This document shows, piece by piece, positions 9,175 through 63,187 of a stretch of 64,000 nucleotides of DNA (positions are counted from its first letter, which is position 1; each line of letters opens with the position of its first letter). The notes under the pieces are model-generated. The model had not been told where the DNA came from. It did no database searches and saw only the letters and a program-made list of their open reading frames with translations. A program made the translations under genes and the position numbers. Source of the DNA: Magnetococcales bacterium WMHbinv6 (GTDB lineage: Bacteria; Pseudomonadota; Magnetococcia; Magnetococcales; Magnetaquicoccaceae); NCBI GenBank assembly GCA_002753135.1, contig PDZV01000013.1, forward strand, positions 1-64,000, written 5' to 3'.

Positions 9175-10383
9175 TTAAACCGATTGCAAATACGGCAAAA
9201 GCCTCTCCTGGGCCTGCAACAAACTCCAACCCTGCCCCTCGGCCACGGCCAGCAGGTCGGCATATTCTATTTTGCAGCGCTCTCCTGCCTCCTTGACCCG
9301 GACCATGCCCCAAGGGGTAGTGATCTCCCGCAGACGGCGGGGCAAAATCAGTCGTTCGGTCGGGGTCAGGCGGACACCCAGGGCGGTGCTGTGGTGCAAG
9401 ATCAAGGCAGCCACTCTCTCGGCCTGTTCCGTCTCTGCCATCACCTCCAGACGGACGCCGGGACGACCTTTTTTCATCGTTATCGGCAGCAAGGCCACAT
9501 CCAGGACCCCGGCCTGCCACAAGTGGTCACTCAAGGCACCGTACCATTCCGGATTCATGTCGTCGATATGGGTGGTCAATACCGTCACCCACTCCCGCAA
9601 CAGAGTTGCCTCGTTCTCCTCCTCCTCCTGTGCCAACAGGCGCAACAGATTGGCCCGACCGGCAATTTCGCGGCTGCCCAACCCCTGCCCCACCCGATCA
9701 ATGCGGGTAAGCGGGCAAGCACCATAGCGTTCGGCCAACGTGACCAGAATGGCCGCTCCGGTCGGCGTCACCAATTCTCCATTTACCGGATCGGCAAGCA
9801 GGGGCACCCGATAGCGTCGCAACAACTCAGCAACCGCTGGAGCCGGTATCGGCAGGCGACCATGCGCACAATCGACAAAACCGCTGCCAGTGGCCAGCGC
9901 AGAGGCACTGCAACTGCTGACTCCCAGGGCCCAACAGGCATAGGCAGCACCACAGATATCGATGATGGCATCCACCGCGCCCACCTCGTGAAAATGGACC
10001 TCGGCAATCTCAATGCCATGCACGACAGCTTCCGCCTCTGCCAAACGGCGAAAGATGGTCGCCGCCAACTGCTTGACCGGTTCTGGCAGGGCGGAATGGT
10101 CAACCAAAGCGAGAATCTCTCCCAGATGACGGTGCGGGTGATGGTGGTGATGGGTCGGATGATCATGCCCGTGACCATCCGCCTCCTGATGACTCTCTTC
10201 ATGCACCTCCAGATGCAGACCACGCAGACCACCCCGCCGTCCCGGTGTGATCGTCCAACGCCATCCCTGCAGTACACTTTGCAACGCCTGCTGCAGAGGA
10301 GCCACCTCCACGCCCAAATCGATGGCCGCTGCCAAAAACATGTTGCCGGCAATACCCGATGGCATATCCAGATGCAATTTCAT
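9175..10383 (-). CDS. larC: LarC, nickel insertion protein (pincer cofactor cyclometallase), unfused frame intact
   Basis: CTP-dependent nickel insertion into the pincer nucleotide. The start is ATG 10383 (MKLHLDMPSGIAGNMFLAAAIDLG), which overlaps the stop of the upstream polyferredoxin as ATGA; an in-frame extension upstream belongs to that gene's antisense reading. The product has 402 residues: N-terminal half with PSGIAGNM and HFHEVGAVDAIIDICG, a histidine-rich stretch of 12 His near 65-87 (metal store), PTGAAIL, and a C-terminal LarC2 half with THIDDMNPEWYG and MKKGRPGVRLEV. In some lactobacilli larC needs a frameshift; here both halves are in one frame. No larA is seen in the window. Confidence 0.92.
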   Translation of the reverse strand: MKLHLDMPSGIAGNMFLAAAIDLGVEVAPLQQALQSVLQGWRWTITPGRRGGLRGLHLEVHEESHQEADGHGHDHPTHHHHHPHRHLGEILALVDHSALPEPVKQLAATIFRRLAEAEAVVHGIEIAEVHFHEVGAVDAIIDICGAAYACWALGVSSCSASALATGSGFVDCAHGRLPIPAPAVAELLRRYRVPLLADPVNGELVTPTGAAILVTLAERYGACPLTRIDRVGQGLGSREIAGRANLLRLLAQEEEENEATLLREWVTVLTTHIDDMNPEWYGALSDHLWQAGVLDVALLPITMKKGRPGVRLEVMAETEQAERVAALILHHSTALGVRLTPTERLILPRRLREITTPWGMVRVKEAGERCKIEYADLLAVAEGQGWSLLQAQERLLPYLQSV

Positions 10384-32714: not shown

Positions 32715-33875
32715 CTATCGCACCGCAGCCACCGCCTTTTCGGCGGCATCATTGAGATCATCGGCGGAGATAATCGCCAGACCGGATTCATTGAGAATCT
32801 TTTTGCCCAGTTCGACGTTGGTCCCCTCCAGACGCACCACCAGCGGCACTTTGATGGCCACTTCACGGGCAGCCGTCACCACACCGTTGGCAATCACGTC
32901 GCAACGCATGATCCCACCAAAAATATTGATCATGACGGCTTTGACGCTGCTGTCGGACAGAATCAGTTTGAGGGCTTCCGTCACCACTTCCGTGGTGGCA
33001 CCGCCGCCTACATCCAAAAAGTTGGCCGGCTTGGCCCCTTTGAGCTGAATAATATCCATGGTGGCCATGGCCAGACCGGCACCGTTGACCATACAACCGA
33101 TGGAACCTTCCAGGGCGATATAATTCAGACCGTGCCGAGAAGCCTCAATCTCTTTGTCATTTTCTTCATTGAAATCACGCAACTCGATAATATCTTCATG
33201 CCGGTACAAGGCGTTGTCGTCAAAATTCATTTTGGCGTCCAACGCCATCAAGTCACCCTCTGCGGTCACCACCAGAGGATTGATCTCGACCAATGAGGCA
33301 TCGGAATTAACGAAGGCGTTATAGAGTGCGGTCATGAACTGTACCGCCTTGTTGACCTGCTTGCCTTCCAGTTTTAAACCAAATGCCAAATTACGGGCCT
33401 GAAAAGCAACCAATCCCACGGCGGGATCGATCACCTCTTTGAGAATTTTTTCCGGAGTACGAGCGGCAACCTCTTCGATTTCCATACCGCCTTCGGTGGA
33501 GGCCATCATGGTGATCCGGCTGGAGGCACGATCCACCACCATACCCAGATACAGCTCACGAGCAATAGCGCACCCCTCTTCGATATAGAGCCGTTTCACC
33601 ACTTTGCCGGCTGGACCGGTCTGATGGGTCACCAGTGTCATGCCCAGAATGCGCTCTGCATACTCTTTGACCTCACTCTGGCTGCGGGCCACTTTGACCC
33701 CGCCACCTTTGCCACGGCCTCCGGCATGAATCTGTGCTTTGACCACCGTGACGGCACTGCCCAACTGCTTCGCCGCCTGTTCCGCCTCGTCGACGGTAAA
33801 GGCAACATGGCCACGGGGTACTTTTACTCCATAACTGGCTAGAATCTTTTTAGCTTGGTATTCGTGAATATTCAT
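32715..33875 (-). CDS. sucC: Succinyl-CoA synthetase beta subunit
   Basis: ATP-grasp subunit that, with SucD, interconverts succinate plus CoA and succinyl-CoA. 386 residues of normal length: [17 protein letters not shown] at the start, [18 protein letters not shown] (nucleotide-binding Lys), [19 protein letters not shown] (Mg ligands) and [17 protein letters not shown] near the C terminus. In a reductive TCA setting it supplies succinyl-CoA to KorAB. It starts with ATG 33875, and sucD follows by 12 bases. Confidence 0.95.
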
Positions 33876-48166: not shown

Positions 48167-48284
48167 GGGCGGCTCCGGCCAGGCTGAGTACGGCACACGG
48201 AAAGCTCCGCTACCGCTGCTACCTTCCGGTCCTGACGGGGTTTACGGGTTTCCGTTGCGTACGTCCTGGCCATCAACGCCGCCC
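48167..48284 (-). ncRNA. ffs: 4.5S signal recognition particle RNA (small bacterial type)
   Basis: On the minus strand the conserved apical domain GTCAGGACCGGAAGGTAGCAGC-type core is present (GUCAGG..CCGGAAGG..AGCAGC, the Ffh-binding loop with its GGAA tetraloop). The ends pair as GGGCGGC (5') with GCCGCCC (3'), giving a hairpin of about 118 bases. It lies just upstream of dnaX, a common location. Exact ends are set from the terminal stem. Confidence 0.93.
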
Positions 48285-48381
48285 GCTGTATGGCAAACGT
48301 CACAATCATGGTGTGGCGGAATCGGCCTCTTAATCTGTGCAGCCCGTCAGGTGACCCATAAGGCCACGTTCGAGCGCAAGG

Positions 48382-48472
48382 TGGCGGAGAGAGAGGGATT
48401 CGAACCCTCGGTACCCTTTTGGAGTACACACGCTTTCCAGGCGTGCACCTTAAACCGCTCGGTCATCTCTCC
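48382..48472 (-). tRNA. tRNA-Ser (anticodon GGA)
   Basis: Class II tRNA with a seven-base acceptor stem GGAGAGA/TCTCTCC, anticodon loop CTGGAAA (anticodon GGA, serine), a long variable arm, GGTTCGAATCC T-arm and an encoded CCA end. Confidence 0.96.
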
Positions 48473-49773: not shown

Positions 49774-49864
49774 TGGCGGAGAGAGAGGGATTCGAACCCT
49801 CGGTACCCTATCGGATACAACACCTTAGCAGGGTGCCGCCTTCAGCCAGCTCGGCCATCTCTCC
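49774..49864 (-). tRNA. tRNA-Ser (anticodon GCT)
   Basis: Class II tRNA: acceptor stem GGAGAGA/TCTCTCC, anticodon loop CTGCTAA (GCT, serine AGY codons), long variable arm, encoded CCA. Its last 36 bases are identical to those of the tRNA-Ser(GGA) gene 1.4 kb away. Confidence 0.96.
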
Positions 49865-50355
49865 CAGATGCGCAGGATGACAATAAAGTGTCACCTTGTC
49901 AACCCCAACAGATCATATTCGGTGATTTTTTCTTGTAAGCCAGGCCAATACAGTGAGTCAGGGGAAGAAAAACAGCTCAGCATGATTAGCATAACACTTG
50001 GATTATAAATATATTTTTTAGAAAATGCATGTCACCATCTTCGACCTCTGCCTTTCTTTTCAATCTCACCCTAACCATGACGATCGAAACTTGGCACTGT
50101 TACTGCATACTAACAGTCACGTTTGACCGGAATCGCGTAGCAGAGACCTCTAACAAAGAACTCTACTGCAAACGGACATGATCCTCTGCTGCGACACAGT
50201 CCGGGCAAATCGGCAGCAATGTCAACCGGTGGCCGAACGGAATTCCGTTCGGCTGCCAGCCGGCTGCAATCGCTGCGTCAATTGCTGGATTTAATATATA
50301 ACAAAAGTTGTATAACAAGATAAAATATCCTGAATATTTGGCTATTTTGCCAGTC
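49865..50355. other. AT-rich intergenic stretch with a 22-bp palindrome
   Basis: About 490 bases without a credible gene, richer in A/T than the surroundings (runs such as ATAAATATATTTTTTAG). It contains one perfect 22-bp palindrome at 50232-50253 centred on GAATTC, followed by CAGCCGGCTG, a second short palindrome. It separates the tRNA-Ser gene from the recombinase remnant. Confidence 0.6.
50232..50253. repeat. Perfect 22-bp palindrome
   Basis: Arms GCCGAACGGAA / TTCCGTTCGGC with no spacer. It is symmetric enough for a dimeric protein site or a hairpin. It sits 100 bases before the recombinase-like gene. Confidence 0.7.
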
Positions 50356-51240
50356 ATGGATATGTATTGTTTCACACCTAAACTTAAGGAATTTTGGTCT
50401 CTTATGGAGGTTTTACCTACACCGGTCTCGCAGGGATTGGAATATCCCCCACAGATGGGACCACCGCAAGCTGGAATGTTGGCCAACAATACCCGTATGG
50501 CCTATTGGGGTGATTTGCGCCGTTATGTGGATTGGGGCGGCACCGTACCTTCCGCCTCCAAAACAGTGGCTGCCTATTTGATGGCCCATGCCCAAACCCA
50601 CAAGTATGCCACCTTGGTGCGCTGGAAAGTATCGATCGGTAAAGCACATACCAACCAAGGGTTGGATGATCCAACCAAATCCGATGCGGTGCATGCCGTC
50701 TTGTCCGGTATTCGGCGCAGCCATGGCAAAGAGCAGCGTAAAGTGGCACCGCTGGTCAAAGAACAGGTGTTGGCCATTGTCGGAACGCTGGGTGAGCGTC
50801 TGAAAGATAAAAGAGACAAAGCGCTTATTCTATGTGGTTTTTCTGCAGGACTGCGCCGTTCGGAAATGACCACCCTGTCGCTGGCCGATCTGCGCTTCAT
50901 CCGTGAAGGCATTGAAATCCATCTGCCGGAGGGCAATGCCTATCTGCAATATGCCCGTGGTACCGCCTGTCCGGTGCGGGCGATGAAAGAATGGTTGCAA
51001 AGCGCACAAATTGAAGAAGGTTCCGTTTTTCAAGGTATTAACCGGCACGGCCAACGCTCTGGCTCCCCGTTGACCGGACATGGCATCGCCTTGATCGTCA
51101 AAGAACGGGTTCAGGCCATCGGTTTGGATCCGGCGCAGTACAGCGGTTTCAGTTTACGCGCCGGTCTGGTTGCCAGCGCCGTGGCTGCAGGCATTCCTTT
51201 CCGTACCGTGACCACGTTGCAAGGACCGGGTATCCTGTAA
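50356..51240 (+). pseudogene. Tyrosine recombinase (integrase) remnant, C-terminus missing
   Basis: 294 residues from ATG 50356 (TTG 50308 or ATG 50404 are alternatives). N-terminal SAM-like core-binding domain (NTRMAYWGDLRRYVDWGG, VSIGKAHTNQGLDDPTKSDAVHAVLSGIRR) and catalytic domain with ILCGFSAGLRRSEMTTLSLADLRF (first catalytic Arg). The HxxR box reads SLRAG with Ser for His. The protein stops right after it (TVTTLQGPGIL), so the second His/Trp and the nucleophilic Tyr are absent. It cannot be a normal active recombinase. It is the only mobile-element trace in the window. Confidence 0.75.
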
Positions 51241-51321: not shown

Positions 51322-51747
51322 TCAAAAGATGACATCCTTATCCCTGCCTTTACCGAGAAACCACAACTGCCCCCGCGCCTGCAGGGCCAGAGCCGTCTGC
51401 AAAATGGTTTGACGCGCCGCCTGCACCCGATGCCGTTGCACCGGTCCCAGCAGAGCCATCTCCTCGCGCAAATTGTCGGCAGCACGCGGGGATAAATTAT
51501 CCAGAATCCGCTCCACCAATGGCCACTCCGCCCCTTTCAACGCCACCACCCACACGGCACTATCGGTCGCACGCAACAAATTTTGCAAGCCTCGTTCATC
51601 TACGGTCAGCAAATCGCTGAACAAGAGCATGGCGTCGTACAACTCTTTGGCCAACCGTTCATCCCGTTCATCGATGTAGGCCAAGAGGCGCAACCGCTTT
51701 TCCGCTGTCATGAGTGACAAAATTCCTGCAGCTTTGCCGATGCTCAC
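51322..51747 (-). CDS. Stand-alone FliG C-terminal domain protein
   Basis: 141 residues; GTG 51747 preceded by GGAGG at seven bases, a strong site. Residues 12-130 align with the end of flagellar switch protein FliG: ELYDAMLLFSDLLTVDERGLQNLLR, VVALKGAEWPLVERILDNLSPRAADNLREEM and ALLGPVQRHRVQAARQTIL. The N-terminal and middle FliG domains are absent, but the gene has its own ribosome site. So it may be a small switch-like protein rather than debris. No flagellar genes are nearby. Confidence 0.75.
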   Translation of the reverse strand: MSIGKAAGILSLMTAEKRLRLLAYIDERDERLAKELYDAMLLFSDLLTVDERGLQNLLRATDSAVWVVALKGAEWPLVERILDNLSPRAADNLREEMALLGPVQRHRVQAARQTILQTALALQARGQLWFLGKGRDKDVIF

Positions 51748-51889
51748 CGGATCACCTCCTTAAATTCGTCATATTCTTGACAGAGTCAGGCAAGAACGGC
51801 ACGAAACAGCGTCAAACAGATCCATACATTCCCCTGCCTGTTAAAGCATGTTATGCTGCCAGCATTTTTCATCGCCCAAGGAACTGATC

Positions 51890-53278
51890 ATGTCGCTGGC
51901 CATGTTATCCTTCCGTCGCACCCTGCAACAGTGGTGGCAAGCCTGTTCCGTCTATACCGAAAAAAGGGTTCTGGCGATCCTTTTTCTTGGCTTTTCCAGT
52001 GGTTTGCCCCTTGCCTTGACCTTCAGCACCCTTTCGGTCTGGTTATCGGAAGATGGTATCAGCAAAACCGCCATCGGTCTTTTTGCCCTGACCGGCGTGC
52101 CCTATACCTTCAAGTTTGTCTGGTCACCGCTGATAGATCAACTGCCAATTCCCTGGTTGAGCAAAAAAATGGGCCGCCGTCGCAGTTGGGCGCTCTTGTG
52201 CCAGTGTGCCCTGATGATCTCCCTCTGCCTGCTTGGCTTGAGCGACCCCAGAGAAAATCCGTTGACCACTGCCCTGCTGGCTCTGCTCGTGGCCTTCTGG
52301 TCGGCCAGTCAAGATATTGTCATCGATGCCTATCGTGTAGAAATTCTTGAAGAAAAGCAATATGGTGCCGGGGCGGCCATTTATGTATTGGGTTACCGTA
52401 TCGGCATGTTGGCTTCGGGAGCCGGTGCCTTGTATCTGGCCACCTATTACGGTTGGCTGCTCACTTATCTGTTCATGGCCCTGTTGATGCTGGTCGGCGC
52501 TGTGACCATTTTGCTCAATCCAGAGCCAAATATTCATCATCATCCCCGCGCCTTGGCCAACGACACCCCGCTGCCGGCCTGGATCGGGCGCTGGGGTCAA
52601 TTGCCCGGCAGACGGGGAACGGCAATGCGCTGGATTGCCAAAGCCGTCATCGCCCCTTTCGCCGATTTTACCCGTCGTGACGGTTGGCTCATCGTTTTGT
52701 TGTTTATTCTTTTTTATAAACTGGGCGATTCGCTGGCTGGGGTGATGAGCAACCCTTTTTATCTGGAACTCGATTTCAGCAAAGTGGAAATTGCCTATAT
52801 CAGCAAAATTTTTGGTCTGGCGGCAACCCTGGCGGGCAGTGTCGTGGGTGGTGTCATGGTCAACCGTTTGGGTATTCTGCAATCCCTGTTCTACTGCGGC
52901 CTGTTGCAAATGGTTTCCAATCTGATGTTTGTCCTCTTGGCCGCCAGCGGTCACAGCCTGCCGCTGTTGACCCTGACCATCGCTGTGGAAAATTTTAGTG
53001 GCGGAATGGGAACTGCGGCGTTTGTTGCGTATCTATCTTCCTTGTGCAATATCGCCTATACGGCTACCCAATATGCCTTACTCAGCTCCTTCATGGCCTT
53101 TGGACGCACATTATTGGCCTCCATGGGTGGTTCGTTGGCCGATCAGATGAGTTGGACCCTCTATTTTCTGTTGACCACATTGGCTGCCCTGCCAGGTTTG
53201 GCCCTGTTGTGGTTGATGACCCGACGTTTTGTCGCAAATCCCCATGCGGAACAGGAGCAACTTGATGAACCAGCTTGA
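51890..53278 (+). CDS. ampG: AmpG-like major facilitator permease
   Basis: 462 residues from ATG 51890, seven bases after AAGGA. About twelve membrane helices; N-terminal signature LFLGFSSGLPLALTFSTLSVWLSEDGIS and FVWSPLIDQLPIPWLSKKMGRRRSWAL, then WSASQDIVIDAYRVEIL, all typical of AmpG, the inner-membrane importer of anhydro-muropeptides for cell-wall recycling. Its 3' end overlaps the HPP gene by 14 bases, so the two are co-translated. Substrate is by family only. Confidence 0.88.
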   Translation: MSLAMLSFRRTLQQWWQACSVYTEKRVLAILFLGFSSGLPLALTFSTLSVWLSEDGISKTAIGLFALTGVPYTFKFVWSPLIDQLPIPWLSKKMGRRRSWALLCQCALMISLCLLGLSDPRENPLTTALLALLVAFWSASQDIVIDAYRVEILEEKQYGAGAAIYVLGYRIGMLASGAGALYLATYYGWLLTYLFMALLMLVGAVTILLNPEPNIHHHPRALANDTPLPAWIGRWGQLPGRRGTAMRWIAKAVIAPFADFTRRDGWLIVLLFILFYKLGDSLAGVMSNPFYLELDFSKVEIAYISKIFGLAATLAGSVVGGVMVNRLGILQSLFYCGLLQMVSNLMFVLLAASGHSLPLLTLTIAVENFSGGMGTAAFVAYLSSLCNIAYTATQYALLSSFMAFGRTLLASMGGSLADQMSWTLYFLLTTLAALPGLALLWLMTRRFVANPHAEQEQLDEPA

Positions 53279-53915
53279 CAGCCAGATTCTGCTTGCCGAC
53301 AGTCGTTTTCTGTTGCAACGGGAGGCAGCAGACCTGCACCAACCGCCGCGCCGCTGGTTTCGCTTTCTCTTGCGCCTTCGGGTGTTGCTGCACAAAATGC
53401 GCGGCGGGGGCACCTCTCCGCCTCGAGCCCAATTGAATGAAGTTCTCTGGTCCTGGGTTGGGGCCTTTGTCGGTATCGGCCTGGTGGGCTATCTGGATTC
53501 CCACTTTTTTGCCCCCATTGACCAGGCCCTGCTGATTGGTTCATTTGGTGCTTCTGCCGTTCTGCTTTATGGCGCACCGGGCACCCCTTTTGCCCAGCCG
53601 CGCAACCTGATTGGCGGACACATGGTTTCGGCGCTGATTGGGGTGATCATGTTTCAGTGGTTGGGTAGCGTCCCCTGGTTGGCTGCCGCCTACGCCGTCT
53701 CCTTTGCCATTGTGGCGATGCATCTGAGCAAAACGCTGCACCCTCCCGGCGGTGCCACCGCCCTGATTGCCGTGATCGGATCCGACGCCCTGCACCAGTT
53801 GGGTTTTCTCTATGTCATCGCACCCGTCGGCATTGGCGCGCTCTTTCTGCTGCTCATTGCGCTGCTGGTCAACAATCTTGCCCCCAGCCGCCGTTATCCG
53901 TCCTGGTGGTGGTAG
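53265..53915 (+). CDS. HPP-family membrane protein, candidate nitrite transporter
   Basis: 216 residues from ATG 53265 with AGGAG seven bases upstream. Four to five membrane helices and the family motif KTLHPPGGATALIAVIG, with LLIGSFGASAVLLYGAPGTPFAQPRNLIGGH. HPP proteins in plants and cyanobacteria transport nitrite; bacterial members are often next to nitrate assimilation genes, as here. Its end overlaps the end of nasS by 22 bases on the opposite strand. The transport role is inferred from family and context. Confidence 0.82.
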   Translation: MNQLDSQILLADSRFLLQREAADLHQPPRRWFRFLLRLRVLLHKMRGGGTSPPRAQLNEVLWSWVGAFVGIGLVGYLDSHFFAPIDQALLIGSFGASAVLLYGAPGTPFAQPRNLIGGHMVSALIGVIMFQWLGSVPWLAAAYAVSFAIVAMHLSKTLHPPGGATALIAVIGSDALHQLGFLYVIAPVGIGALFLLLIALLVNNLAPSRRYPSWWW

Positions 53916-54973
53916 ACGCCACACTGCGGCAGATAATCGGTCAAAAACAGTCCATTCAAGAGCGCCGTATCGTCGGTGATCGTTCCGTTCAACTGTTTCC
54001 AGCGCCGCATGTGTTGCAACAACCACTCTCCATGTTGCACGGTGGGAAGCAGGGCCTGGTGACGAAAAAAATATTGGTAATCCGGGACAGAGGCGGCGTG
54101 ATAGCCGTTGAGCAGGGGTTGCCCTCGCAGCACCGGGCGCAACACCTCCCGGTCGGTATCCAGGTAGGCCTCCTGACTCAAAACCCGGAGCAACTCTTCC
54201 AGATTCTCTGCCTGATCCGCCCAGACGGCGGCCTCTGCCAAAGCACATACCAGCTTTTTTACCACATCTCCGGCCCCGGCAAACCAGTCAGCCCGCATGC
54301 CAAGCACCTTTTCCGGGCCATGAGGGCATATTTCCTGGCGGGTAACCACCAACTCCCCGACACCACAGCGCACCGCCCACTGATTCCACGGTTCTCCCAC
54401 ACAACAACCGGCAATCTCCTGCCGCGTCAAACTTTCCACCATGCGCGGCGGTGGCACCACCAGCAACGCCACATCCCGGTCGGGGTCAACACCCACCTCT
54501 GCCAACCAGTGGCGCAATACATAATGATGGCTGGAAAAAGGATGGACTGAAGCCAGACGCAACGGCACCTCTCCCAAACGACGCCGCGCAGCGATAACCC
54601 GCGCCAACGCCCGATTGCGCAACTGGCGGGGTCCAGCCATGGCTTCCGGATCGGCAACCTGCATGGCAGAGACCAGCCAGGGAGCCAGAGTAATCGCACT
54701 GCCACCCTGCCCCAAAGCCATTGGCACCACCATCGCCGTGCTGTTGCCCTGCAAACCAAGGTGCATCGCCAGCGGCATGCCAGCCAGCATATGCGCACAA
54801 TCCAGCACCCCATGCGCAACCTTATCCCGAATCGCCGCCCAGGCACCTTCCCGGGAGAGTTGCAGATCGATTCCATGCTTTGCGGCCATGCCACACGCTT
54901 TGGCCACCACCAATACCGCGCAATCGATGAGCGGTATAAAACCGGCCCTGACTATCGATAATTTTTGCTTCAC
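53894..54973 (-). CDS. nasS: NasS, cytoplasmic nitrate/nitrite sensor
   Basis: 359 residues, GTG 54973, no signal peptide. It is a NrtA-like binding protein that stays in the cytoplasm: [79 protein letters not shown]. The pair NasS-NasT regulates nitrate assimilation: without nitrate or nitrite NasS holds NasT, and binding frees it. It follows nasT by 14 bases. Lack of a signal peptide and linkage to an ANTAR gene separate it from a transporter subunit. Confidence 0.88.
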   Translation of the reverse strand: MKQKLSIVRAGFIPLIDCAVLVVAKACGMAAKHGIDLQLSREGAWAAIRDKVAHGVLDCAHMLAGMPLAMHLGLQGNSTAMVVPMALGQGGSAITLAPWLVSAMQVADPEAMAGPRQLRNRALARVIAARRRLGEVPLRLASVHPFSSHHYVLRHWLAEVGVDPDRDVALLVVPPPRMVESLTRQEIAGCCVGEPWNQWAVRCGVGELVVTRQEICPHGPEKVLGMRADWFAGAGDVVKKLVCALAEAAVWADQAENLEELLRVLSQEAYLDTDREVLRPVLRGQPLLNGYHAASVPDYQYFFRHQALLPTVQHGEWLLQHMRRWKQLNGTITDDTALLNGLFLTDYLPQCGVYHHQDG

Positions 54974-54987
54974 GGCACCATCCCATT

Positions 54988-55614
54988 CTATTCGATTTGC
55001 AGTGCGGTCAACAAAATGCGGGCAATCTCTGCCAACTTGCGGTTTTCGCGCATCGCCGCCTTGCGCATGGCATGATAGGCCTGCTCTTCCGTCATATTTC
55101 TTTGTTTCATTAACATCCCCTTTGCCCGCTCAATCACTTTGCGATCTTCCAAAGCCAGAATGGCCTCATCCCGCTGACGACGCAATTTTTCGTAACTGTG
55201 AAAACGAGCAATGGCCATTTCAACAATCGGCCTGACTCGCTCTTTGCGCAGACCATCCACCACATAGGAAGAGACGCCAGCCTCGATGGCCCGTTCGATC
55301 ATCGAACGATCCGACTGATCGACAAAGACAACAATCGGCCTTTGCAAGGATTGGGTCACCTGATACAACCCCTCCAGAGTATCCCGATCCGGGTTGCCCA
55401 GATCGATCAGGATGACATCCGGGTGCAACAAAGCAATGCGACTGGCCAATTGGTTAAAAGAACGGATGGTCATCACCCGTGGATAACCCGCCTCCACCAG
55501 CCCTTGTTCGAGAATGACTGCCCGTTCTGGATCGGTATCAATGACCAGAATGGAGAGTGCCAGAGCCTCATCACCGCCTTCGTCAGGCGGCTTCCTGCTT
55601 GCCTTTATGGCCAT
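54988..55614 (-). CDS. nasT: NasT, ANTAR-domain transcription antiterminator
   Basis: 208 residues taking ATG 55614; earlier in-frame ATGs at 55620 and 55626 and no clear ribosome site leave the start uncertain. Receiver-like domain ([36 protein letters not shown]) with a non-canonical acidic pocket, then an ANTAR domain (about 145-205) with [50 protein letters not shown] domains bind RNA double hairpins to prevent termination. Target hairpins are seen before nirB. The gene overlaps the end of nrtCD, so it is read from the nitrate operon it is predicted to control. Confidence 0.9.
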
Positions 55615-58442: not shown

Positions 58443-59867
58443 TTAACCTTCCAGTCGCCCGGAAACAACTTTCTGTTTTCCCTTCAAACCGATGGTCAAT
58501 TGCTCCAGATAGGCGTTCGGAGTATGGGCATCGTAGCGCATGCCATCGATGAATTCGTTCTGTGCGGGACGAAAACCATCGCTATCCCACAAAAATTCCT
58601 CTTTTTTGGCCTTGCCTTCTTCCACCAGCACTCTGGCCGCCTGCAGATAGAGATCGGGGCGATAGACCTTGCGTGCCGTCTCCAGGTACCAGCTATCCGG
58701 CTTAAACTCGCTGATTTGTCCCCAACGGCGCATTTGCGTTAAATACCAGATGGCATCCGAATAGAACGGGTAGGTGGCATGGTGGCGGAAAAAGACATTG
58801 AAATCACTGGCATTGCGTTTGTCCCCTTTTTCGTATTCAAAGGTACCGGTCATCGAGTTGGCGATCACCTTGGCATCAGCGCCGACAAATTCCGCTTTGG
58901 AGAGCATTTTGACCGCTTCCATACGGTTGGCATTATTGTTTTCATCCAACCAGCGGGCCGCCCGAATCAGTGCCTTCAAAAGGGCCAAGTGGGTACGTGG
59001 ATGTTTTTCCGCCCAGCCCTTGGTGACACCAAACACCTTTTCCGGATTGTTTTTCCAGATTTCATCATCGGTGATCACCGGCACACCAATGCCCTTGAAG
59101 ACGGCCTGTTGATTCCAGGGCTCGCCGACGCAATAGCCTTGAATGGTCCCCGATTCCAACGTTGCAGGCATTTGAGGGGGTGGCGTAACCGACAACAACA
59201 CATCCGCCATGATTTGCCCGGAAATGTCTGTCGTAGAATAAAAGCCGGGATGAATGCCCGCCGCTGCCAGCCAATAGCGCAACTCATAGTTATGGGTGGA
59301 GACCGGAAAGACCATGCCAAAGTTGAAATTTTTGCCCGCGCAACGCAGTTGCTCCACAACCGGTTTCAAGGCATCGGCTTTGATCGGATGCTGCGGTTTG
59401 CCATCCGCCTGTTTGGGCAGATGGGCTTTCATCTGCTGCCAGATATCGTTGCCGACCGTTATGGCGTTACCGTTGAGATCCATGGAAAAGGCGGTAATGA
59501 TCTCGGCCTGGGTACCAAAACCGATGGTTGCTCCCAATGGTTGCCCGGCCAACATGTGCGCCCCATCCAACTCACCGGCAATCACACGGTCCAGTAACAC
59601 TTTCCAATTGGCTTGCGGCTCCAGGGTAACCAGCAACCCCTCCTCCTCAAAAAAACCCTTCTCGGCAGCAACCGCCAGAGGCACCATATCGGTCAATTTA
59701 ATGAACCCCAGCTTTAATTGCTCTTTTTCCAAGGGGGCATCGACTGCTTGCGCGGTACGGAGAGGCAGCAGGCCGCTGGCCCACAGGGCCGAAGCACCGA
59801 TCAGAGACAAAAGGGTTCGTCTGCTGCAGGAGTATCCTTTCTTGGAAACTGCCACGCCGTTGTTCAT
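58443..59867 (-). CDS. nrtA: Nitrate-binding protein NrtA, Tat-exported
   Basis: 474 residues from ATG 59867 with AAGGAG six bases upstream; the frame extends upstream through the leader but without a start signal. N-terminal twin-arginine signal [18 protein letters not shown]. NrtA/CmpA-family binding fold: [79 protein letters not shown]. It delivers nitrate or nitrite to NrtB. It heads the nrtA-nrtB-nrtCD-nasT-nasS operon, with an RNA leader and promoter upstream. Confidence 0.92.
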
Positions 59868-59900: not shown

Positions 59901-59964
59901 AAAAAAAAACGCCGCTTCGCGAACCGCATCGCTGACGATGCCGGAACAGGAAGGCGACGTTGCC
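59901..59964 (-). terminator. Leader terminator before nrtA with a possible ANTAR P2 hairpin
   Basis: On the nrtA strand, an extended hairpin (arms CGCC-TTC / GAA-GC-GGCG and an inner CATCG/CGATG stem) is followed by nine T (59909-59901), 34 bases before nrtA. Just before it, GGC-AACGTC-GCC forms a hexaloop with A at position 1 and G at position 4, the ANTAR signature, and its 3' arm runs into the terminator's 5' arm. A matching P1 hairpin is not obvious, so ANTAR control here is less certain than at nirB. Confidence 0.6.
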
Positions 59965-60062
59965 GGAAACTCTGCCCACAGAAACACTCTTCAGGCAGCT
60001 TTGTAACGGTAGACCTTCGTTGGCACCGTTAATTTGCACTGCATCAAAAAACATGCCAGCCC

Positions 60063-60068: not shown

Positions 60069-60290
60069 CCCGCTTTGAGTCGATTTTATTGCCTTGTCGC
60101 CCAGCTTCTGCCTAATATTTATGCAATCACCGCCCGATTTTGTACCAGTCTCTCTGGCCTGCTGCGCAAAAAACGCCCGCCCATGAATCATCAGCTGCCA
60201 CTTATCCTGAAAAAGTCACCATTTTTTTCTTGGTCCGGGAATTGCTAGTAACCAATCAGCTTCGTCATTCGATGGCCAAAACAGAGATTC

Positions 60291-60370
60291 GGGCCCAAAG
60301 TTGGGCCCAGGGTAACGCTGCCCGAACAACGCCTCCCGTTTAAGGAGGATGCCTGTTCGGGCTTTTTTTT
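60291..60370 (+). promoter_or_regulatory. ANTAR (NasT) antitermination leader of nirB: P1, P2 and intrinsic terminator
   Basis: P1 is GGGCCC-AAAGTT-GGGCCC (60291-60308) and P2 is GGGT-AACGCT-GCCC (60310-60323). Both loops have six bases, A at position 1 and G at position 4, as the ANTAR RNA motif requires. P2's 3' arm GCCC is also the first part of the terminator arm GCCCGAACA (60320-60328), which pairs with TGTTCGGGC (60354-60362) followed by eight T. Binding of an ANTAR protein would keep P2 and prevent the terminator. nirB starts 26 bases after the T run. Known NasR and EutV leaders have this arrangement; NasT is encoded 5 kb away. Confidence 0.9.
60320..60370 (+). terminator. Conditional intrinsic terminator in the nirB leader
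   Basis: Nine-bp outer stem GCCCGAACA/TGTTCGGGC, with an inner CCTCC/GGAGG stem, followed by TTTTTTTT. It is mutually exclusive with the P2 hairpin. Confidence 0.93.
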
Positions 60371-60395: not shown

Positions 60396-62864
60396 ATGAG
60401 CAGCTCGCCGACCCCCCACTTGCTGATTATCGGCAACGGCATGGCGGGTATCCGCACCGTAGAGGAGTTAACGGCCTTGGCCCCGCAAGCCTATCAAATC
60501 ACGGTGTTTGGTGCCGAACCGCACGGCTGTTACAACCGAATTCTGCTTTCGCCGTTGTTGGCGGGTGAAAAATCTTTGCCAGAAATTATCACCCATCCAG
60601 CTTCCTGGTATGCCGAGCGAGGCATTGCCTTGCATGCCAGCAATCCGATCACGACCATCGATCGGCAAGCCAGGCGGGTGATCGACAGCCAGGGCGGCGT
60701 TCACTCCTATGATAAGCTGTTATTGGCGACCGGATCGCATCCGCTGGTCATCCCCCTGCCTGGCCATCAACTGCCGGGTGTGGTCACCTTCCGCAACCTG
60801 GCCGACGTGGAAAAAATGCTGACGGTTGCCGCTCCGGGAAAACAGGCGATTGTGATCGGAGGCGGTCTGTTGGGCCTGGAAGCAGCGATGGGCCTGTTGC
60901 AACAGGGCATGCAGGTGACCGTCGTTCATCTGCTGGATATTTTGATGGAACGGCAATTGGATGGCGTTGCCGCCAGCCTGCTGAAAAGCGAACTGGAAGC
61001 TCGCGGCATCCGCTTTCACATGCCTGCGCAAACGGAAGCGATCCTCGGAGCAAGCCAGGTGCAAGGCATACGTTTCAAGGATGGCAGCGTTCTGCCCGCC
61101 GACCTGGTGGTGATGGCCGTGGGTGTACGCCCCAACACGGATTTGGCCAAAGCGGCTGGCCTCTCCTGCGAACGGGGTATTCTGGTGGATGACCAGTTGC
61201 AAACCTCGGATCCGCATATTCTGGCGGTCGGTGAGTGTGTGCAACATCGGGGTACGGTTTACGGCCTGGTTGCCCCCCTGTTTGAACAGGGTAAAGTGAT
61301 TGCCCGCCGTCTGGCCGGCACGGACGATGCCGCCGCCTATCGAGGTTCCACCACCTCGACCCGTCTGAAAGTGACCGGCATTGAACTTTTTTCGGCAGGA
61401 AATTTTCTCGGTGATGCCGAGTGCGATACCATTCTGTTTCAGGATCCCAGCCGCAGAATTTACAAAAAACTGGTGATCAAAAACCATATCGTGCAAGGTG
61501 CGGTTTTGTTGGGCGATACCATGGATGGAGCCTGGTACATGGAGTTGATGCGGGATGGTACCGACATCACCCCCTTCCGCCACCATATTCTTTTTGGCCG
61601 TCCCCACCTGGGCGATGCCGGGCACGGTCCCAGTTCTGTTGCCGATTTGCCCGCCAGTTACCAGGTTTGTGGCTGCAACGGCGTCTGCAAGGGGAGCATC
61701 GAAGAGAGCATCATCCAAAAGGAGCTGACCACCCTGGAAGAGGTGCGGGCCCACACCAAAGCCTCTGCCTCTTGCGGCTCCTGCACGGGTATGGTGGAAC
61801 AAATTCTCGCCCATACTCTGGGTGGCGACTATGTTCCGGCACCAGTCAAACCACTCTGCCGCTGCACCACCCTGAGCAGCGATCAACTCCGCATTGCCGT
61901 GCGTGATCAACACCTGACCTCGGTTGCCACAGCCATGCAGCAGTTGGCCTGGCAGAGCCAGGACGGATGCCCAACCTGCCGACAGGCGCTGAACTATTAC
62001 ATCACTGTTTTCTGGCCGGCTGAACATCAGGAAAGTCCGCTCGATCGTTTTGTCAACGAACGCTTCCATGCCAACATTCAACGGGACGGCACCTACTCCG
62101 TGGTTCCCCGTCTTTGGGGAGGCACCACCACCCCGGCGCAACTGCGGGCCATTGCAGATATTGCCGAACGGTTTGCCGTACCGGAAATCAAGCTGACCGG
62201 CGGCCAACGCATCACCCTACTGGGGATCAAGCGGGAGACTCTCCCGGCCATCTGGGCGGCACTCGGTGAGCATGATCTGGTCTCTGGACACGCCTATGGC
62301 AAGGCTGTGCGCACGGTCAAAACCTGTGTCGGCAGCCGTTGGTGCCGTTTCGGCGTGCAGGATTCGGAACAGATGGGCGTCGCGTTGGAAAAACAGCTTT
62401 GGAACAGCTGGACCTCGCACAAATACAAATTGGCAGTCTCCGGTTGCCCGCGCAACTGCGCAGAAGCGACAATCAAGGATTTTGGCGTCGTCGCCGTCGA
62501 ATCGGGCTGGGAGCTGCATGTCGGTGGCAATGGTGGCATCAAGGTTCGGGTCACCGATCTGCTCTGTCGGGTGGAGAGCATGGCGGAGGTTTCCGAATAT
62601 GCGGCGGCTTTTCTGCAGCTCTACCGGCGCGAGGCCGTCTATCTGGAACGGACCGCCCCCTGGGTTGAGCGGGTCGGAATTGACTGGATACGGCAACAAC
62701 TGGTGGATCAGCCTGCCTATCGCAAGCAGCTGCACGATGCCTTTGTCGCTGCCCATCAACCTTTGGCCGATCCCTGGATGGAACGGGTGCAAGGATTGGC
62801 CGGTACCCGTGATTTTCTCCCCTTGGTTTCCCTTCCTTTTCCCACTTTGGAGAACGTGGCATGA
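60396..62864 (+). CDS. nirB: Assimilatory nitrite reductase [NAD(P)H], large subunit NirB
   Basis: 822 residues; ATG 60396 after GGGAG. It reduces nitrite to ammonium with NAD(P)H. Order: FAD domain (HLLIIGNGMAGIRTVEEL), NAD domain (AIVIGGGLLGLEAAMGLLQQG), two BFD-like [2Fe-2S] groups (CGCNGVCKG...CGSC and CRCTTLS...CPTC), sulfite/nitrite reductase half-domains, and the siroheme/[4Fe-4S] cysteines CVGSRWC near 650 and SGCPRNC near 684. Length and layout are typical. It overlaps nirD by four bases. It is expected to be controlled by the leader terminator just upstream. Confidence 0.95.
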   Translation: MSSSPTPHLLIIGNGMAGIRTVEELTALAPQAYQITVFGAEPHGCYNRILLSPLLAGEKSLPEIITHPASWYAERGIALHASNPITTIDRQARRVIDSQGGVHSYDKLLLATGSHPLVIPLPGHQLPGVVTFRNLADVEKMLTVAAPGKQAIVIGGGLLGLEAAMGLLQQGMQVTVVHLLDILMERQLDGVAASLLKSELEARGIRFHMPAQTEAILGASQVQGIRFKDGSVLPADLVVMAVGVRPNTDLAKAAGLSCERGILVDDQLQTSDPHILAVGECVQHRGTVYGLVAPLFEQGKVIARRLAGTDDAAAYRGSTTSTRLKVTGIELFSAGNFLGDAECDTILFQDPSRRIYKKLVIKNHIVQGAVLLGDTMDGAWYMELMRDGTDITPFRHHILFGRPHLGDAGHGPSSVADLPASYQVCGCNGVCKGSIEESIIQKELTTLEEVRAHTKASASCGSCTGMVEQILAHTLGGDYVPAPVKPLCRCTTLSSDQLRIAVRDQHLTSVATAMQQLAWQSQDGCPTCRQALNYYITVFWPAEHQESPLDRFVNERFHANIQRDGTYSVVPRLWGGTTTPAQLRAIADIAERFAVPEIKLTGGQRITLLGIKRETLPAIWAALGEHDLVSGHAYGKAVRTVKTCVGSRWCRFGVQDSEQMGVALEKQLWNSWTSHKYKLAVSGCPRNCAEATIKDFGVVAVESGWELHVGGNGGIKVRVTDLLCRVESMAEVSEYAAAFLQLYRREAVYLERTAPWVERVGIDWIRQQLVDQPAYRKQLHDAFVAAHQPLADPWMERVQGLAGTRDFLPLVSLPFPTLENVA

Positions 62865-63187
62865 ACGGCTGGCACTATATTGGTTCCTTACAGGATATTC
62901 CGCAGCAGGGATCTCGGATTGTCGAGGCCGGCTCCTTGGGCAACATTGCGGTATTTCGCACCCATGGCGACCAGGTTTTTGCCTTGGCAGATCGCTGTCC
63001 GCACCGGCACGGCCCCCTTTCACCGGGCATCGTGCATGGCGACAAAGTCACCTGCCCGTTGCACGGATGGACCATCGATCTGGCAACCGGTGCGGCATTG
63101 GGAGCCGATCATGGCTGTACCCGACCCTTTGCCATCCGCAACGAGGCCGATGGACTCTACCTGCAACTGCCGGTCAACGGTGACTGA
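62861..63187 (+). CDS. nirD: Nitrite reductase small subunit NirD (Rieske domain)
   Basis: 108 residues; ATG overlaps the nirB stop (ATGA). One Rieske [2Fe-2S] domain with both ligand pairs: CPHRHG near 46-51 and CPLHGW near 67-72. Many NirD proteins have lost the Rieske ligands, so the intact cluster is notable. Partner of NirB in electron delivery to siroheme. Confidence 0.93.
   Translation: MNGWHYIGSLQDIPQQGSRIVEAGSLGNIAVFRTHGDQVFALADRCPHRHGPLSPGIVHGDKVTCPLHGWTIDLATGAALGADHGCTRPFAIRNEADGLYLQLPVNGD

Follow-up and report, generated by a model that had tools for sequence, protein, structure and literature searches.

The window is the whole 64,000-nucleotide stretch of contig PDZV01000013.1 from the uncultivated Magnetococcales bacterium WMHbinv6. 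Within it, two divergent sets of nitrate assimilation genes flank a single intergenic region (Table 1). On the plus strand, nirB and nirD are followed by the start of the nitrate reductase gene nasA. On the minus strand the order is nrtA, nrtB, a nitrate-type ATPase gene (together nrtABD), nasT and nasS, and the intervals between successive genes are 14, 44, -5 and 14 nt. The nrtA product has an RR motif near its N-terminus; no export signal was seen by eye in NasS. NasT combines a receiver with an ANTAR domain and NasS is NrtA-like, which together with the 14-nt gap between their genes identifies the pair as a NasS-NasT system. A whole-genome search found NasT to be the sole ANTAR protein.

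Table 1. Features of the nirB-nrtA intergenic region and neighbouring genes (positions in the window)
Feature	Position	Strand	Sequence or basis
nasS, nitrate sensor partner of NasT	53894-54973	-	PF13379, 225 bits
nasT, receiver and ANTAR	54988-55587	-	PF03861, 68 bits; PF00072, 41 bits
nrtA, nitrate ABC transporter binding protein	58443-59867	-	translation; homology to relatives
Intrinsic terminator, nrtA leader	59901-59959	-	CGTCGCCTTC ... GAAGCGGCG, nine T's; overlaps P2
P2, nrtA leader	59953-59964	-	GGC, loop AACGTC, GCC
Middle hairpin, nrtA leader	59972-59999	-	no A1/G4 hexaloop; z -0.9, individually not significant
Distal P1, nrtA leader	60004-60031	-	folding; TAACGGTGCC, loop AACGAA (60016-60021), GGTCTACCGTTA
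Promoter-like site before nrtA (putative promoter)	60044-60058	-	TGGCATG-N4-TTGA; regular expression
Sigma54-like promoter, nirB (putative)	60230-60246	+	TTGGTCCGGGAATTGCT (GG-N10-GC); direct reading
P1, nirB antiterminator	60291-60308	+	GGGCCC 60291-60296, loop AAAGTT 60297-60302, GGGCCC 60303-60308
Linker P1-P2, nirB leader	60309	+	A; direct reading
P2, nirB antiterminator	60310-60323	+	GGGT 60310-60313, loop AACGCT 60314-60319, GCCC 60320-60323
Intrinsic terminator, nirB leader	60320-60370	+	GCCCGAACA 60320-60328, TGTTCGGGC 60354-60362, T8 60363-60370
nirB, assimilatory nitrite reductase large subunit	60396-62864	+	TIGR02374, 872 bits over cut-off; ATG 60396
nirD	62861-63187	+	TIGR02378, over cut-off

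The nirB leader contains two hairpins, P1 (6 bp) and P2 (4 bp), each capped by a hexaloop with A at position 1 and G at position 4 (A1/G4), AAAGTT in P1 and AACGCT in P2. Stems of at least 3 bp, hexaloops of this type and a P2 that overlaps an intrinsic terminator are the marks of an ANTAR target RNA, and all are present here. The overlap is read directly, as GCCC at 60320-60323 serves both the 3′ arm of P2 and the 5′ arm of the terminator. The sequence thus agrees to the base with the earlier note, which had described two such hairpins before nirB, an overlap of P2 with the first arm of an eight-T terminator, and a linked nasT. With all six P1 pairs formed the linker between the hairpins is 1 nt, and it lengthens with fraying of the lowest pairs; loop to loop the distance is 11 nt. 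A linker of 1 nt lies at the lower end of the lengths described; eutP is impaired by a 3-nt linker (PMC3369931). Predicted energies are -21.5 kcal/mol for P1 and P2 together and -24.4 kcal/mol for the terminator (z -5.4), and the leader as a whole folds with z -3.5, none of 200 shuffles being equally good. A consensus terminator scan of the window missed this terminator because its stem-loop falls outside the limits of the scan; the scan flagged P1, on the opposite strand.

Chance occurrence was assessed with a strict rule that requires a pair of A1/G4 hairpins at a distance of 9-20 nt and an overlapping terminator. The real window holds one full element, the nirB leader, and 100 dinucleotide-shuffled windows hold none. 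A short-type candidate at 32916 (minus strand) from a loose scan of the window was lost under stricter rules. Over the whole genome a P2 pattern matched 125 times and its control 73 times, and none of the 30 matches inspected had a convincing full element. A covariance model (R1) was built from 14 leaders linked to NasT in other genomes, with the window and its sister species excluded. In an unfiltered search of the window the top match of R1 was 60293-60322 (25.4 bits, E 0.006), the runner-up scoring 13.7 bits; this is the site, 60291-60323, at which the earlier note had expected a covariance hit. Rfam 15 gave no match at the nirB leader with either gathering or permissive thresholds. Applied to the whole genome, R1 retained 150 of 1202 candidates and did not recover the window match. 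In R1 no pair of either helix is lost and 27 double changes occur; as the rows had been picked for pairing, this describes the alignment without proving the pairing.

Among 48 Magnetococcia genomes, six encode an ANTAR protein and seven a close NirB. P2 and its overlapping terminator precede nirB in all six NasT-bearing genomes. Five of these also have a full P1, with loop distances of 11, 11, 11, 13 and 25 nt, so that the 11-nt spacing is kept in three genomes; the sixth (G015) has P2 and an upstream loop, GGCGAA, without A1. No such leader was found before nirB of G011, which has NirB and no ANTAR protein. Among named relatives the nearest is the sister species, ‘Candidatus Magnetaquicoccus inordinatus’ UR-1, with 80% identity in NirB. 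Its nirB leader keeps both hairpins and the 11-nt loop spacing, with a different P1 stem (GGTCC/GGACC). The nas and nasTS genes of UR-1 are described in passages of PMC6783814, and those passages do not discuss leader RNA. Control of the nirB leader by NasT is supported by the anatomy, the NasST linkage, the co-occurrence in Magnetococcia and the independent covariance model. The earlier note had spoken of NasR/NasT control; NasR falls away because the one ANTAR protein of the genome is of the receiver-ANTAR type.

A second ANTAR switch lies in the same intergenic region (59901-60031, minus strand), ahead of nrtABD-nasTS. It too qualifies as an ANTAR target RNA, having two A1/G4 hexaloops (AACGAA and AACGTC) and a P2 that overlaps the terminator. 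Its P2 and terminator are canonical in form; its P1 and P2 loops are 54 nt apart, with another hairpin in between. This distance falls outside the described linker limits, which are 5-12 nt for the short linker needed by E. faecalis EutV targets (PMC3369931, PMC8934654) and 2-25 nt for curated actinobacterial ANTAR RNAs (PMC8164766). In all six Magnetococcia nrtA leaders P2 has the form GG[C/T][AACG(C/T)C]GCC and overlaps a T-run terminator, and an A1/G4 partner hairpin sits near the 5′ end, downstream of the conserved promoter-like site and 41-54 nt from the P2 loop. The stems of this distal P1 differ in the other five genomes and the A1/G4 loop is retained. An alternative P1 with the loop AGAGTT was rejected in favour of AACGAA, as it is not conserved over the six genomes. 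The hairpin in the gap is strong and unrelated in UR-1, G038 and G023, and weaker in the window. The account of the switch in the earlier note holds for the nirB element and is incomplete for the locus: it lacked the second switch, the sigma54-like sites and the position of nasT behind the second switch.

The nasTS genes lie behind the nrtA switch in 5/5 Magnetococcia that have both on one contig; outside Magnetococcia they lie behind it for one of 25 placeable nrtA-type leaders and in front for the other 24. We note that in G007, the sixth genome, an nrtA leader copy stands about 100 bp upstream of nasT (L108, about 9340-9450, plus strand), and what is left of the ATPase gene lies between the two; the copy keeps P2 and the terminator, and the loop of its distal hairpin has changed, with loss of A1/G4.

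The wide spacing was followed beyond these six genomes in up to 20 kb around NasT from 60 additional regions, of which almost all belong to other Pseudomonadota genomes. The leader set comprised 50 leaders, 31 nrtA-type and 19 nirB/nasA-type, and the counts are not fully independent because some of the source genomes are related. P1 was defined as a hairpin of at least 4 bp, closed by C:G and with A1/G4. Its distances are bimodal: 18/31 nrtA-type leaders have P1 at 41-54 nt (in shuffles 0.08 on average and at most 2), none at 31-40 nt and eight at 10-20 nt, the last being also the distance in 8/19 nirB-type leaders. A prediction fixed beforehand was examined in 20 further genomes, where 3 of 11 nrtA-type leaders had P1 at 41-55 nt against 0.03 expected. 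When hexaloop hairpins of at least 5 bp were picked by structure alone, A1/G4 was present in 19/21 at 39-56 nt and in 11/14 at 9-24 nt. Wide-spaced nrtA leaders occur in Magnetococcia, Rhodobacterales, Caballeronia and others (Leisingera 42 nt, Sulfitobacter 44 nt, Caballeronia 53 nt), and short spacing dominates in other families. In Paracoccus ferrooxidans there are three A1/G4 hairpins, with a distance of 42 nt from the first to the third, and this leader has no evident T-run terminator. Three consecutive A1/G4 hexaloop hairpins are likewise seen in some nas leaders (L077 4178, minus; L078 14247, plus; also L128, and L136 6860-6960, plus).

The gap between the distant hairpins tends to be structured. 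Over 22 leaders the gap folds somewhat better than its shuffles (mean z -1.2, combined -5.5), and 24 of the 29 leaders examined have a gap hairpin where shuffling predicts 10.6 (combined P only 0.004). It mostly ends 2-10 nt before P2 and is usually without A1/G4. As a universal feature the middle hairpin had to be abandoned, being absent or weak in L072, L102 and L121; it is frequent in wide-spaced leaders without being universal.

Both transcription units have putative promoters, recognised by likeness to consensus. The GG-N10-GC of the site before nirB is present in five of the six NasT-bearing Magnetococcia, with GG-N10-GT in the remaining one, and its position would put the start of nirB transcription near 60257. 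The genome encodes rpoN, and ntrC scores over its family cut-off. Before nrtA, TGGCAY-N5-TTGA occurs in 6/6 Magnetococcia leaders; TTGA in all six stands against TTGC in the sigma54 consensus.

Starting from what was observed directly, namely the sequence, its pairing potential, its conservation, its co-occurrence with NasT and the chance controls, we infer a mechanism that comprises NasT binding, a nitrate response, the promoters and feedback. Judged from the sequence and by analogy with known systems, it is very probable that 60291-60370 is the NasT antiterminator of nirBD-nasA and that the divergent nrtABD-nasTS carries a second NasT switch. Transcription of nirB would probably begin from a sigma54/NtrC-type promoter near 60230. 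Without nitrate, NasS would hold NasT, the nascent leader would fold into the terminator and transcription would end before nirB. With nitrate or nitrite, NasS would release NasT, and the free protein would bind the P1 and P2 hexaloops; P2 would then sequester GCCC 60320-60323 from the terminator and the polymerase would read through. Such a promoter in series with a NasT switch implies that the operon would need low fixed nitrogen and nitrate together. The nrtABD-nasTS unit would be governed by its own NasT switch, with P1 and P2 far apart and an extra hairpin between them. With nasTS behind this switch, NasTS would raise its own expression, and positive feedback of NasTS is thus predicted for Magnetococcia.

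Other readings of the nirB element fare poorly. The terminator would work by itself, and the element could in principle be a plain intrinsic terminator or constitutive attenuator with incidental hexaloop hairpins. We regard this as very improbable: the loops and the overlap are kept despite stem changes, the leader is missing where NasT is missing, and the shuffled windows yielded no full element. NasT binding might instead alter access to the nirB ribosome site and leave termination unaffected, as overlap with the ribosome site is known for some ANTAR RNAs (PMC3369931, PMC8164766). The strong eight-T terminator between P2 and the nirB ribosome site makes such translational control extremely improbable.

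The reading of the nrtA leader is less firm. Antitermination by EutV is lost when the linker is 14 nt long or is extended by 20 nt (PMC3369931, PMC8934654), and it was concluded that the hairpins must be close and that one dimer cannot hold both simultaneously (PMC8934654). Because EutV antitermination fails with a lengthened linker, the nrtA-type leaders look like a distinct NasT architecture, composed of a strict A1/G4 recruiting hairpin near the 5′ end, a middle hairpin (sometimes A1/G4) that spans the gap, and, 41-57 nt beyond the first loop, the P2 that overlaps the terminator; in Magnetococcia it would also control nasTS. We lean towards this reading as the probable one. The same EutV result (PMC8934654) can be turned the other way, to favour the middle hairpin as the working partner of P2, at ordinary spacing and with its loop relaxed, which would make the distal A1/G4 hairpin a separate or secondary site. 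R1 does score the middle hairpin together with P2 in some leaders (L037, E 0.026; L038, E 0.089), and the middle hairpin is also A1/G4 in L088, L098, L105, L080 and Paracoccus ferrooxidans. However, most middle loops, including that of the window, lack A1/G4, as against its presence in 19/21 of the distal hairpins picked by structure alone, and we consider a working pair of middle hairpin and P2 unlikely. For the distinct architecture, the simplest reading has NasT recruited by the first hairpin and the effective distance shortened by the middle one; NasT oligomers larger than a dimer may help to bridge it (PMC3795266).

The nirB element is a further well-formed case of the known ANTAR switches, here in a magnetotactic lineage. 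It shares with the Klebsiella oxytoca nasF leader (PMC7496416) two A1/G4 hexaloop hairpins, of which the second overlaps the terminator, and a role in nitrate assimilation under nitrate control; NasR of K. oxytoca is a one-component NIT-ANTAR sensor (PMC7496416), whereas the sensor here is the separate NasS. The two-hairpin antiterminator with its overlap of P2 and terminator is also that of the EutV target RNAs (PMC3369931, PMC8934654). A receiver-ANTAR NasT with NasS is found in Paracoccus denitrificans for nasA (PMC3795266, PMC5424462) and in Bradyrhizobium for nosR (PMC6759348), and, as in the nas leaders under NasT/NasS control, the leader hairpins precede nitrate assimilation genes. Unlike the Paracoccus and Bradyrhizobium nas leaders, the present locus has two divergent leaders in one intergenic region, with nasTS behind one of them. 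For Paracoccus, nitrate- or nitrite-dependent dissociation of NasS-NasT and binding of NasT to the nas leader have been published (PMC3795266), and the loop and hairpin requirements of ANTAR proteins are given in PMC3369931.

The wide-spaced nrtA-type leaders matter more than the nirB element. EutV targets have a short linker, whereas these leaders have 41-57 nt loop to loop and usually an extra hairpin between. Mutation of two P. denitrificans leader hairpins separated by about 46 bp showed the upstream hairpin to be essential (PMC5424462), a likeness that may fit the wide spacing seen here. Neither wide-spaced nor three-hairpin ANTAR leaders were found described in the open-access literature, several central papers lying outside its reach, and the newness of the wide-spaced variant is thus provisional. 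If the distinct architecture is correct, the EutV spacing rule is not general and the middle hairpin would join the ends or act as a relay. The recurrent natural spacing of 41-57 nt with a gap hairpin offers a direct test of ANTAR transfer from the first to the second hairpin. Search models with short linkers would overlook such leaders.

Some further genes of the window were noted beside the nas cluster. An HPP-family membrane protein (PF04982; 53229-53915, plus strand) is convergent with nasS, and in passages of PMC6783814 an HPP protein is listed beside nasTS of UR-1. An apparently full-length MFS transporter is encoded at 51848-53278 (plus strand); the same passages of PMC6783814 give only an MFS gene fragment adjoining the UR-1 nas cluster. 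The product of 51322-51747 (minus strand), 141 aa long, consists of a stand-alone C-terminal domain of FliG and lacks the remainder of that protein. A phage-type integrase gene (50308-51240) near tRNA-Ser (gct) lies within 49774-51240, and a second tRNA-Ser (gga) and the SRP RNA are located at 48174-48472.
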